DNA from: Chthonomonas sp.
GTDB taxonomy: Bacteria; Armatimonadota; Fimbriimonadia; Fimbriimonadales; Fimbriimonadaceae
Direction of reading: 5' to 3'
Length of the DNA: 64,000 bases
NCBI GenBank assembly: GCA_016788115.1
Contig: JAEURR010000008.1
Location: 124,001-188,000 of the forward strand
A program made the translations under genes and the position numbers. The notes beneath the pieces were generated by a model. The model saw only the letters and a program-made list of their open reading frames with translations, did not search any database and was not told the DNA's origin. Below, one piece after another: positions 17,782 to 27,098 of this stretch. Position 1 is the first letter of the stretch; every line of letters starts with the position of its first letter.

Positions 17782-20700
17782 CTATTCCCGCTTCCTAAAG
17801 ACGACGCTCATCCCAAGTTCTCCAATGGGCTCCGAGACTTCTCCAGGCCGCCGGTCCTGGCTGCCGCGCCGACGTCGTCGACGGCGTCTGGTCCCTGGGC
17901 TCACACGCTCGTCGAGGTCGCTGAGCTCCTCGGGAAGGTCCACCTCGATTTGGCTCGGTTTCAGCAGCAGGTCGTCAGCCAGCTCTTCGGTCCATCCTTC
18001 TTCCATCCACTCACCTAGCTTCATGATTGGGACTTCAAAGTTGAGGTGGTCGTAGTCAATCGTGTTTTCTGGGCGGTCCGGGATCGCCGGAGCGATGAGA
18101 AGCTCATCGAGATTGCGATTCAGCATCGCGTCCAACTCGCTGCGCGGCCCGACGGCAAAGACGTACGTCATCCCGTCCATGGCTGTGAAGCGAAGATGGG
18201 TTTGATCGAGAGCTGCCCACTCGTGGGTTCCGACATTGTAAGCGGCCCACTTGTCAGGCAACGTGATCGCCCGTGGGCCGGGCTTCGTACAGTGCACGGT
18301 GAGGAATGGCGGGCGCACATGGACCACATCGTCGTGGTAGTTCCATGCGGGGGCGCCGGCCATGTCTCCGAGGGCGCGGACCAAGGCTGGCGTCATCACC
18401 GGTTCGCCGAGGAACACACTCGTCCAGCGGCCGTCCGTTTGCTCTGCTCCGTCGAACTCCCGAATGACGTAGCTGGGCAGACCGGTTTGGCTGTACTCAC
18501 CCAGGACGATCGCGTTCTCGGGGATCGCGAAGTAGCTTGGTTCTAGCTGGCTGCCAGCAGCCAGATCTCGATCTGGAATCGCCTCGCACAGCGGGTGACG
18601 TCGGTTCAGGACCGTTGAACCCGACCTGCTTGCGTAAGGCTGGGGCTTGAGGGCGATGCCGGTAACCTCGCGTACCCGTTCTAGGGCGTCGCGGCCCGAA
18701 TCGAAGACCCCTGCTGCGTACATCCAGAAAAGAACCTTTCCGTCGCGCTGAAGACGACTCTTGATCGCGCTTCGCACTTCGGGTCGGATGTCCCACGCAT
18801 TCACGAAGATGTGAACCTTACACTCGGGGAAGTTCTCACGGTGGGCGAGATCGCTCAGCAAATAGAAGCCGGCGCTCAGCCCGCTGCGCAGGACCGATTC
18901 GCGCACGTTTTGCACGAGGAGCCCAAACGCTTTGGCGTCGGCCAAGTAGGCTAGCGAGCGCTCGTCAATGAAAACGGCCACATCGGGATTTGTTGCTTGC
19001 CCGATGCGGGCTCGGAGCAACGCTTCTCGGACTAGCTCGGCACGTTGCCAGATCCCGGGAGTATTGAGCCATCCGTTGCCCCAAATGTCCATCCAGCATA
19101 TGCCGCTGCTATGGGCAAGGGCCGCGCCGGCTCCGCGCCACTGGACGCTCTCGAGCGCCTGCGGAGTTCGGATGGTTGGGTTGAAATCGTCCGGCTCTTG
19201 CTGGCCGCTGCTGATTGGCGTCTTGAAGTCCTCTTCGCTGATGTAAAGCTTGCCATTGAGCGCAAAGCTGTCAATAGGGCAAGGGAACGGACATGTGCCG
19301 CCCGGCAGTCGATTCTTGTAGCTTGGCGGACCGGCAATGATGTCTACTTCGGGCGTCCGGAGCAACTTGCCGAGGCTCAGGTGGCCGCTGGCAGCGTGAT
19401 CCCACTCAAACGTGTACCCGTAGCTCACTCCCACAAGGAACATTCCATCGGTCGCTTTCTTGACCGCATATGCCAGGCTGCTGATCCGCTCGACGGTGGC
19501 GTCGCTCAGGAAGAGGTGCGTGTCCACCCATCGGCGCTGCTTGCGCCCGGTGCGCACAAAGTCCTCAGCCTTGCCTGAGTTGTACTTTGGCAAAAGGACG
19601 TTATCAAAGGTGACCTTTCCGTCAAACCACGCGGCCCGGAGGGCCACCGTGTCGTTGCTGTAGCGCATTCTCAGCCACTCGCGGAACTTGGTCAAAGACG
19701 CTGCCGAGGTGTCGTAACCTTGGCCGTTGGCGAAGAACCACTCGCCCCGTTCGATGTGCAGACCGAGGATGTTGCCCGCATTCGGCAGGCGCATCAGCTG
19801 CTGCGAGAAGCTCGCGAGACATTCAGCCGCAACCTCCCAGAACTCGTCGTGGCAGATGCTCGGTTCGGCGAGCTCGCCCTGTGCGTTCGCGTAGGCCGCT
19901 CCGGGATATCGTTTTTCCCAGTCGTTCGGAGCGGTGAAAACCAGGCGGAACATAACCTGCGAGTCTGGGTTGACGCTCACTGTCTTGTCGAGCAGAAACG
20001 CGGCGACACCGACGGCATCCTCAACTCGCGCAGGATCGACGATGAACTCAACGTAGTGGATGAACGCCGAGACCCCGTGCTCGTGGGCGAGCCGGATCTC
20101 TTCGAAAACGTTGTCCGATCTGCGCTGATCCGAGGCAGCCCCAAAGAAAAAGATGGGAGGAATGACTTTGCCGTCTCGAACGAGCAGCGCGTGGCCCTCT
20201 TGCTGGATGACTTGGGGAGCGTTCGCTGGGATTCGCACCGGCTCGCGCTTCGGCTTGGCGGGCGGTTCGGGCTCCTTTGAAACAACGGGTTCAGGGCGCG
20301 GCGTCTTCTCAGCGCGTGCCCGCTGCGGTCGTTCAGGTCGAGCTTGTTTTGGCTCCTCGCGCTCGGAATCGGGCACCAAGGCGTCGGCGGCAGTCACGAG
20401 TTTGCCGCGTCCGCGTCGTCGGCTGCGGCGCGTCGAGCTTCGTGCTTCCTCCTCGGCTTCGGGCGCGGCGGCCCCGCTGGCAATGCTTGCGGCGGTACCG
20501 GCGGCGCGCCACTGGAGGATCACGAGCTCATCGCGATTCGGGGGCGTTGTGATCTCCGGAAGCGCTGGGATGGCCACGGCTGCGGGCTTCTGGCCACCAC
20601 GAATCGGCTTTGCCGAGACAGCGGCGGGCTTTTGGGGGGTCGCCTCGCGGCGGGTCACCGGGCGGAAAGAGATCTCGATGCGGCCTTCGGGATCGTTCCA

Positions 20701-20958
20701 AGCAAACTGGGTCGGCTTCGGCTTAGGGGCTCGCTTCCGGCTGGCTGGCTTCTCCGGTGCCGTTTCAACTGCGGCGGGTTCGGGATTCGGCGCAGGCGTA
20801 CGCTTGGGGCGGGATGGGCGCCGCGGCGCCTCCGTAATGGCTTCGACGACGGGGGGAACTACCTCTACGTTCGGGGTCTTCTTGGCGCGAGTAGTTCGCG
20901 TCTTCGGCTGTTCGGTTGCGACCGCGGTCGCTTCAGTGGTTGCTTTCGGTTTTCGCAT
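17782..20958 (-). CDS. GH42-like glycosidase core fused to basic disordered N- and C-terminal regions
   Basis: A 1058-residue protein without signal peptide or membrane segment. Residues 1-245 are disordered, rich in Lys, Arg, Pro, Ala and Glu, with RSSTRRSRRRGRGK around 173-186. Residues 255-640 look like a clan GH-A TIM barrel related to GH42: IPPIFFFGAAS, HIERGEWF (candidate acid/base Glu403) and KLYISEEDF (candidate nucleophile Glu575). Residues 655-940 resemble the trimerisation and beta-sandwich regions of GH42. An Arg8 run (1024-1031) near the C-terminus is coded by six different Arg codons, so it is not a DNA repeat. The start overlaps the HAD gene by 26 bp, and era follows after 3 bp. 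A basic-tailed cytoplasmic glycosidase is unexpected; RNA or ribosome association is speculation. Activity and substrate are unknown. Confidence 0.75.
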   Translation of the reverse strand: MRKPKATTEATAVATEQPKTRTTRAKKTPNVEVVPPVVEAITEAPRRPSRPKRTPAPNPEPAAVETAPEKPASRKRAPKPKPTQFAWNDPEGRIEISFRPVTRREATPQKPAAVSAKPIRGGQKPAAVAIPALPEITTPPNRDELVILQWRAAGTAASIASGAAAPEAEEEARSSTRRSRRRGRGKLVTAADALVPDSEREEPKQARPERPQRARAEKTPRPEPVVSKEPEPPAKPKREPVRIPANAPQVIQQEGHALLVRDGKVIPPIFFFGAASDQRRSDNVFEEIRLAHEHGVSAFIHYVEFIVDPARVEDAVGVAAFLLDKTVSVNPDSQVMFRLVFTAPNDWEKRYPGAAYANAQGELAEPSICHDEFWEVAAECLASFSQQLMRLPNAGNILGLHIERGEWFFANGQGYDTSAASLTKFREWLRMRYSNDTVALRAAWFDGKVTFDNVLLPKYNSGKAEDFVRTGRKQRRWVDTHLFLSDATVERISSLAYAVKKATDGMFLVGVSYGYTFEWDHAASGHLSLGKLLRTPEVDIIAGPPSYKNRLPGGTCPFPCPIDSFALNGKLYISEEDFKTPISSGQQEPDDFNPTIRTPQALESVQWRGAGAALAHSSGICWMDIWGNGWLNTPGIWQRAELVREALLRARIGQATNPDVAVFIDERSLAYLADAKAFGLLVQNVRESVLRSGLSAGFYLLSDLAHRENFPECKVHIFVNAWDIRPEVRSAIKSRLQRDGKVLFWMYAAGVFDSGRDALERVREVTGIALKPQPYASRSGSTVLNRRHPLCEAIPDRDLAAGSQLEPSYFAIPENAIVLGEYSQTGLPSYVIREFDGAEQTDGRWTSVFLGEPVMTPALVRALGDMAGAPAWNYHDDVVHVRPPFLTVHCTKPGPRAITLPDKWAAYNVGTHEWAALDQTHLRFTAMDGMTYVFAVGPRSELDAMLNRNLDELLIAPAIPDRPENTIDYDHLNFEVPIMKLGEWMEEGWTEELADDLLLKPSQIEVDLPEELSDLDERVSPGTRRRRRRRRGSQDRRPGEVSEPIGELGMSVVFRKRE

Positions 20959-25619: not shown

Positions 25620-27098
25620 ATGAGCGGGTCAAGGTTTGAGCGGATTGTGGGCGTCGAGACTGAATTCGGCACACTGACCGACTGCCCCGAGTTCAGTAAT
25701 CCTGAGCAAGCGGTTGCCGCCATCAAAGACGCTGTCTTCTACGATCTCAAGCTCGGATTGATCGACCGACATGCCCGAGACGATGTGTTCGAGCCTGCAC
25801 TCAGTGGCGGATTCCTCATGAACGGGGGGCGACTCTACATTGATGCGGTTGGTTCGCACCTGGAGTACGCCACCGCCGAATCGAGAACGATCAAAGACGC
25901 GATTGCACACGACCGCGCGGGTCACCGGATCATCACTCAGGCATTGCGCGGACTCGCATTGCAGGACAAAGTCTCCGTCTATAACAATTCAGTAGATCAC
26001 TTCGGAGGCCATACCTTTGGATCGCACGAGAACTACCTGACCGTGATGGAGGAAGACTTCTTCAGTCACCAGGTGAACGAGCTGATACCGTTCCTCGTAA
26101 CGCGACAAATATTCGCGGGAGTCGGACGAGTCGGGGGACACCGTTTGGATGCCGTAGCAAAGCGGCCGAGTTACGATGAAGTTATGGCAAATCCGGTGGA
26201 CTACATCTGGGTCAGCCAAGTTTACGGAGTGGAGCCGGACTCAACTGTCAACTTTCAACTCAGCCAACGAGCTGACCATATCATCAAGTCCGTCGCAAGC
26301 AGGGTCCGGTTTAACCGCGCGCTGATCAACCCGAAGTGGGAGCATTTTTACTCCCACGATCGGATGCAGCGGTTACACCTTCTCTTTGGCGAGTCGAACC
26401 AGATGGAGTTCGCTTTCGCCCTGAAGCTGGGGACGACGCGCCTGGTGTTGCATTTGATCGAGGATCGCGTCCTTGACTCGTCCATCTGGCTCGATAGTCC
26501 GCTGTACGCGCTTCGCGAGATCAGCCGCGACCAGACCTTCGAGTGGCGTGTGACGATGGCAGATGGTTCGGAGTCCGACGCAGTCTCCGTGCAGCGACGC
26601 TACCTGGAACTTGCCCAGGGCTATCGCGGAATGAGCGCGGAGGGTGATTGGACACTGGATGCCTGGCAGCAGACTCTGGACGCGCTCGAACGCGACCCTT
26701 TGTCACTCGGTGACCGGCTTGACTGGGTCGCCAAGCGGGCGATGGTTGAGACCTTCAAGGAAGATGCAGGGATCGATTGGACGGACGATGTGCTGCACTC
26801 CATCGACCTGGAGTATCACAATCTGGATCCCGAACGATCTCTTCACCGAGCGCTTGTCGAGTCAGGACAAGCGCAGCGCTTTGTCACGGACCTCGACATT
26901 ATCGAGGCGATGACGGAGCCGCCGTCCGACACCCGCGCGGCCGGAAGGGGCAAGCTCATCCGTCGCGTGCTGCAGCGCAAAAACCCGCGTTTCTACGTCT
27001 TCGATTGGAATGGGGCATCGACCGAGCGTCACGAGTTTCTGGAGTTTTCGGACCCGTTCCATACGTACGAAGAGGTGGTTCCACCACAAGAATCGTAA
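25620..27098 (+). CDS. pafA: Pup--protein ligase (PafA/Dop family)
   Basis: A 492-residue carboxylate-amine ligase-fold enzyme. The ATP/Mg-binding start is VGVETEFG (Glu13, Glu15). The catalytic Asp is in GGRLYIDAVGSHLEYATAE (Asp75), a form that matches PafA (GSHxEYATxE) better than Dop. SHENYLTV, FLVTRQIFAGVG, and QRADHI also follow the PafA order. PafA couples Pup, or the related UBact of Gram-negative phyla, to lysines of target proteins. No Pup/UBact, proteasome alpha or beta subunit, Mpa/Arc or Dop gene is in the window. The ECF sigma gene follows 58 bp later on the same strand. That it is a working ligase is inferred from retained residues. Confidence 0.88.
   Translation: MSGSRFERIVGVETEFGTLTDCPEFSNPEQAVAAIKDAVFYDLKLGLIDRHARDDVFEPALSGGFLMNGGRLYIDAVGSHLEYATAESRTIKDAIAHDRAGHRIITQALRGLALQDKVSVYNNSVDHFGGHTFGSHENYLTVMEEDFFSHQVNELIPFLVTRQIFAGVGRVGGHRLDAVAKRPSYDEVMANPVDYIWVSQVYGVEPDSTVNFQLSQRADHIIKSVASRVRFNRALINPKWEHFYSHDRMQRLHLLFGESNQMEFAFALKLGTTRLVLHLIEDRVLDSSIWLDSPLYALREISRDQTFEWRVTMADGSESDAVSVQRRYLELAQGYRGMSAEGDWTLDAWQQTLDALERDPLSLGDRLDWVAKRAMVETFKEDAGIDWTDDVLHSIDLEYHNLDPERSLHRALVESGQAQRFVTDLDIIEAMTEPPSDTRAAGRGKLIRRVLQRKNPRFYVFDWNGASTERHEFLEFSDPFHTYEEVVPPQES

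Follow-up and report, generated by a model that had tools for sequence, protein, structure and literature searches.

UBact is a ubiquitin analogue that tags proteins for the proteasome. A UBact-proteasome system of Gram-negative bacteria has reportedly been described by Lehmann et al. in 2017, and UBact systems as such are already known, with Pfam and NCBIfam models of their own. The genome analyzed here resembles that system in that it has a protein recognized by both UBact models (PF20513 and NF033388), two Pup-ligase paralogues, 20S alpha and beta subunits and an Mpa-type ATPase; set beside it, its pafA, prcA and mpa genes are dispersed across the genome. The component set is also that of the actinobacterial (Mycobacterium) Pup-proteasome system, from which it differs by UBact in place of Pup, by the dispersal of the genes and by an Mpa tail of the type [IV][IV] instead of GQYL. 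In actinobacteria the tag gene lies between dop and prcB, and pafA follows prcA (part of section 5 of PMC3511204); apart from the tag, the same gene order is found in one genome elsewhere in the phylum (G101). Corynebacterium, according to the same part of that section, carries out pupylation without a proteasome and keeps ligase, tag and ATPase, the latter without the proteasome-interaction tail, whereas here both 20S subunits are present. An excerpt of PMC7947786 counts the Armatimonadetes among phyla with sporadic Dop/PafA homologues. The gene studied lies in a window of 64,000 nucleotides (C8:124001-188000 of the source genome, an assembly of 2.395 Mb in nine contigs that is 97% complete), and we are highly confident that it encodes the PafA ligase of a UBact-proteasome system which is complete, although its genes are dispersed, in an Armatimonadota bacterium of Fimbriimonadaceae type.

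The preliminary description of this DNA had recognized a PafA-type ligase here, which holds: the open reading frame is confirmed, the Pfam search covers the Pup_ligase model almost end to end, and the catalytic signature that had been quoted is located in the protein (Table 1). The residues required of PafA in the GhExE motif, described in an excerpt of PMC7947786, and at the catalytic aspartate are all present (E13, E15, D75), and D75 is presumed to be the catalytic base, matching D94 of Acidothermus Dop. The additional residues relative to C. glutamicum PafA precede the SQRAD sequence, and the longer segment is found in 11/11 rows when orthologues are aligned. The structure predicted by AlphaFold (mean pLDDT 71.7, pTM 0.82) was used for the overall fold only, because the catalytic loops 72–86 and 237–244 have pLDDT values below 50; with this model, Foldseek returns Dop (4b0r) as the top PDB match, followed by PafA (4bjr), all others being far poorer.

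Table 1. Location of the ligase gene, of its motifs and of the separately listed partner genes (positions without contig are those of the window)
Feature	Position	Strand	Evidence
pafA, UBact (Pup-family) ligase	25620..27098	+	492 aa, ATG start; PF03136 416 bits, E 2.4e-124
GhExE-type nucleotide/Mg motif GVETEFG (residues 11-17)	25650..25670	+	G11, E13, E15 invariant in 11 aligned orthologues
Catalytic motif GRLYIDAVGSHLEYATAE (residues 70-87)	25827..25880	+	aligned to RLYLDVGSHPEYATAE (C. glutamicum PafA) and RLYVDHAHPEYSTPE (Dop)
Segment (residues 174-210) with ~25 residues more than C. glutamicum PafA	26139..26249	+	25 gap positions vs 4b0t
K239 in NPKWE, position of Pi-binding R227 of Dop	26334..26336	+	gap-free alignment
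dop, second Pup_ligase gene	C5:379120-380415		Dop profile 297.6 bits vs PafA 238.1
prcA (20S alpha), without other system genes beside it	C6:214064		TIGR03691 77.7 bits, below cut-off 139.05
mpa (Mpa/ARC proteasomal AAA ATPase)	C5:169172-170683		both OB domains and AAA; 210 kb from UBact

Profile scores alone do not separate PafA from Dop for the window protein. Indeed, the NCBIfam models give 291.5 bits for PafA and 289.4 bits for Dop, both below the curated cut-offs (551.3 bits for the PafA model TIGR03686), whereas the Pfam family cut-off is reached, and the nearest solved relatives by sequence are Dop and not PafA (227 against 173 bits). In an excerpt of PMC7947786, the Dop-loop and a change to VGS after the catalytic aspartate distinguish Dop from PafA, the loss of the loop and the VGS of PafA being tied to ligase activity. 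The window protein is without the Dop-loop and contains VGSHxEYATAE, as does C. glutamicum PafA, and the paralogue on contig C5 has a Dop-loop region that aligns to Acidothermus Dop together with a DHxHPEY motif. Since these features decide where the profiles cannot, the window enzyme is, as judged from sequence and from the published distinction, PafA (the ligase) and the UBact-adjacent paralogue on C5 is Dop. In the trees, the window protein is found with full support among orthologues of the order that are 51–64% identical to it, apart from the Dop group. C. glutamicum PafA groups with actinobacterial Dop in the first tree (89/85); in the second, to which Nonomuraea PafA was added, the four actinobacterial rows stand on one side (79/44), and the AU test does not reject grouping every PafA together (p 0.42). 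The trees do not decide how PafA and Dop branch at depth, nor do they join the Armatimonadota PafA with the actinobacterial one. Among the alpha-loop residues of actinobacterial PafA given in the excerpt of PMC7947786, the histidine is retained in the window protein and most others are changed; these changes, the near-equal profile scores, the Dop-nearest structures and the trees were all counted against the main reading, as was the missing GQYL end of Mpa. As a caution, equivalog cut-offs can overlook such ligases or leave them unsorted. As a side observation, the sequence NZ_LT559118.1, which carries pafA in Nonomuraea gerenzanensis and is named "plasmid I", measures 11.85 Mb and is most likely the chromosome.

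The puzzle of a lone ligase is closed by the partner genes found in the same genome. It had been stated before that no Pup, proteasome or Mpa gene lies nearby, and none of the whole-genome matches to proteasome, UBact, Pup, Dop or Mpa falls inside the window. The genome-wide search then proposed, for UBact-like tails, proteasome, Dop and Mpa genes, recovered all of them at three other places, so that of the two explanations offered the scattered system proved right. There are exactly two PF03136 genes, the window pafA and its paralogue on C5. Directly after the latter comes the gene of UBact (58 aa, tail RQRSGQ; 73 bits with PF20513 for a cut-off of 27.8, and 71.6 bits with NF033388 for a cut-off of 35), and directly after this prcB, encoding the 20S beta subunit (121.5 bits with TIGR03690, below the cut-off of 191.9), whose catalytic positions TTV...D...K, read by eye, are kept. 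The reading frames of dop and UBact share 8 bp and those of UBact and prcB share 4 bp, so the three genes probably form a single coupled transcript. The ATPase on C5, whose closest PDB matches are Mpa-type proteasome-associated ATPases, scores 461.7 bits, below the NCBIfam equivalog cut-off of 504.75; the Pfam Proteasome models for the 20S subunits and the OB models for Mpa are matched above threshold although the equivalog cut-offs are missed. The Pup model PF05639 gives no match at E 1 in this genome, C. glutamicum being among the controls that gave one, which together with the UBact match agrees with the earlier suggestion that UBact replaces Pup. The system thus occupies four loci on three contigs and not one cluster. 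A full cluster elsewhere in the genome had been said to make the split ordinary; the split is ordinary in that the partners are there, but the cluster is incomplete and comprises dop-UBact-prcB only. It was also seen that prcA adjoins a gene that reads as one for a ribosomal protein and a gene with a 5'-nucleotidase C-terminal domain (L007:3888-5709), and that homologues of both neighbours lie near prcA in G049 and G077 (L107, L111).

For every component, the analysis shows directly where it is present, to which family it belongs, with which partners it occurs and how its gene is placed, and related genomes were compared on this basis. Among 81 genomes of the order, Pup_ligase is found in 77, UBact and 20S beta in 72 each, 20S alpha in 70 and Mpa in 74, the Mpa counts for order and family being taken at E 1e-80. 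Of the 53 genomes in the family of the window, 51 have UBact, prcB, prcA and the two Pup-ligase genes and 50 have Mpa, G080 being the only UBact-bearing family genome from which Mpa is missing at that threshold. The profile searches found every UBact-proteasome component absent from G055 and G056 (family f1, genus g15, 1.5 Mb), probably a natural loss during genome reduction. In all 51 UBact-bearing genomes dop and prcB lie within 5 kb of UBact, and in none of them is pafA within 20 kb of UBact or prcA within 5 kb of prcB; prcA and Mpa come within 20 kb of UBact in 1/51 each. The split belongs to the lineage; that draft assemblies create it was considered and rejected, because the separation is seen in six closed family genomes (G025, G036, G038, G048, G059, G077), where pafA is 0.89–2.18 Mb and prcA 0.33–1.92 Mb away from UBact.

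In the sister families prcA stands beside prcB throughout (f2 11/11, f3 1/1, f5 6/6), and pafA is near UBact in 3/10 scorable genomes of f2, 1/1 of f3 and 0/7 of f5, many of these being drafts; in the single-contig G006 (f2), pafA is 1.2 Mb from UBact. Outside the order, two near-full Pup_ligase matches lie at most 6 kb apart in 30 of the 40 genomes that have two, and G101 (L219), elsewhere in the phylum, has the complete run mpa-dop-UBact-prcB-prcA-pafA, its members being named by motif and place. Since an intact cluster of this order persists in another part of the phylum, clustering would most simply be ancestral and dispersal the derived state. With its partners all in the same genome, the lone ligase is a rearranged gene of a known system and not a new system. 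An open-access literature search returned no description of dispersal of UBact-system genes. It is of general interest that a tightly co-operating machine for tagging and degradation can stay intact while its genes disperse, even with the 20S subunits separated. Among the best 80 of 258 loci with kin of the window PafA, all titles that name a bacterial phylum or family name Armatimonadota, mostly Fimbriimonadaceae/Fimbriimonadales, while some say just "bacterium" and one names an archaeon. The latter (L131, the 424-kb contig JADZEW010000001.1, titled Methanoregulaceae archaeon) carries a PafA of Armatimonadota type with 63% identity and is probably mislabelled or from a mixed bin.

The surroundings of pafA are as first described: accD and accA (PF01039, PF03255) lie upstream and divergent, and an ECF sigma factor gene is the next gene, 46 bp downstream. 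This neighbourhood was rejected as a clue to function, the acc genes being beside pafA in only 2/20 loci of the family, while in 1/20 a homologue of the sigma factor with 32% identity lies near, ~4 kb away. Elsewhere in the window (17782-20958, minus strand), a protein of 1058 aa has no Pfam match at E 0.001.

The chemical steps, the pairing of PafA with UBact and the degradation are modelled on the actinobacterial Pup system. By this analogy, since UBact ends in Gln, Dop would first deamidate this C-terminal residue to Glu. PafA with ATP would then phosphorylate the gamma-carboxylate of UBact and attach UBact to a lysine of the substrate. Mpa would catch the tag with its coiled coil and thread the substrate into the 20S particle of PrcA and PrcB; Dop may also take the tag off. 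The two Pup-ligase paralogues could have their roles swapped, the window enzyme being the deamidase/depupylase and the C5 paralogue the ligase, as the Dop profile scores the window protein as high as the PafA profile does and the protein is nearer to Dop structures. Such a swap is very improbable in our view, given that the C5 paralogue has the Dop-loop region, the DHxHPEY motif and the higher Dop score, and that the window protein has VGSHxEYATAE and no loop, changes which PMC7947786, in the excerpt, ties to ligase activity. Slightly less credible still, and not needed as an explanation, is an orphan ligase that attaches something other than UBact, the second of the explanations offered earlier. 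The unlinked position of pafA in 51/51 family genomes would suit it; against it, PafA, UBact and proteasome are jointly present in 51/53 and jointly absent from 2/53 family genomes, so that the ligase is kept where UBact is and missing where it is not, pafA sits within the UBact cluster in G101 and in the sister-family genomes counted above (f2 and f3), and the genome is devoid of Pup matches.

Somewhat more weight, although it too is improbable, can be given to working UBact conjugation without feeding of the mycobacterial kind by Mpa to the 20S particle, tagging then being regulatory or relying on another docking factor. The missing GQYL end of Mpa and the separation of prcA from prcB point in this direction, as do the actinobacterial ATPases of proteasome-less species, which are without the tail motif (part of section 5 of PMC3511204). 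Yet the Mpa tail follows a conserved pattern that is different, with two terminal Ile/Val residues in 19/21, prcA and prcB are kept wherever the family has UBact (51/51), and PrcB retains its catalytic positions. Tagging by PafA followed by degradation thus remains the preferred reading.

Several sequence features depart from textbook pupylation. According to an excerpt of PMC8599861, R227 of Dop (in NTRDE) is the arginine that holds the phosphate. The corresponding residue is Lys (PKW) in 92/92 distinct Armatimonadota PafA and Arg (TRD) in 49/49 distinct Dop, and Arg occupies the K239 position in both actinobacterial PafA compared. PafA and Dop classes were set here by motif rules, and two loci that fit neither rule (L037 and L094) were left out; a count of VGxH in the PafA class is circular, VGxH having defined the class, but the Lys/Arg count is not. 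The window protein furthermore reads DAVGSH where C. glutamicum has DVGSH, with one extra residue (Ala) after the catalytic aspartate, so that Lys for the Pi-pocket Arg, this alanine and the insertion set it apart from actinobacterial PafA. With regard to Mpa, an excerpt of PMC8142254 states that the GQYL tail opens the mycobacterial 20S gate. This end is absent in 21/21 loci read, where the C-terminus consists of two Ile/Val residues in 19, of IM in one and of VS in one, one further locus (L197) having been missed by the motif filter. UBact ends with RSGE in 36 and RSGQ in 27 of 63 locus rows, which are not de-duplicated and come from a search pattern that itself required a G[EQ] end. In genus g2, near-identical UBact proteins end with Glu in L064 (G013) and with Gln in L066 (G042), which suggests a recent switch there in whether UBact must be deamidated.

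Lysine for the Pi-binding arginine in the ligase and the non-GQYL tail of Mpa are lineage-wide traits at the level of sequence, and minor surprises. They would fit a mechanistically remodelled subtype of UBact system in Armatimonadota, with a Lys Pi pocket, the extra residue, the insertion and docking through the Ile/Val tail and, in Fimbriimonadaceae, prcA and prcB uncoupled under two promoters; we put this forward as a tentative and rather unlikely proposal. If it were true, the ATP gamma-phosphate/Pi pocket of the remodelled ligase would use Lys and not the otherwise conserved Arg, Mpa would dock on the 20S particle via the Ile/Val tail and not via GQYL, and the alpha/beta assembly ratio in Fimbriimonadaceae would be set by two promoters. 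The variation found in the family, with Lys in the Pi pocket, Mpa tails other than GQYL and both Gln and Glu ends of UBact, is test material for the essential parts of pupylation chemistry and docking.

A second kind of operon with Pup_ligase genes was noted in other Armatimonadota (L215, G087:C18, 853-10313, minus strand; L216, G085:C39, 10396-15234, minus strand; L217, G129:C507, 4360-9601, plus strand). The literature search found no paper on this operon type, and a word search of PMC2588565 gave no occurrence of E1-like, ThiF or JAB. These operons encode two divergent members of the Pup_ligase family, which score 256 and 313 bits in L215, and an AAA protein similar to proteasomal ATPases. 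They also encode a protein of JAB/JAMM type, with weak matches to JAB in PADLOC and an HTHPS motif read by eye, and a ThiF/E1 protein that scores 96 bits. Inspection by eye alone suggested an E2-like protein in L215 and L217 and a ubiquitin-like protein in L216, and the arrangement resembles a cross between Pup-ligase machinery and ubiquitin-like machinery of the E1-E2-JAB type.
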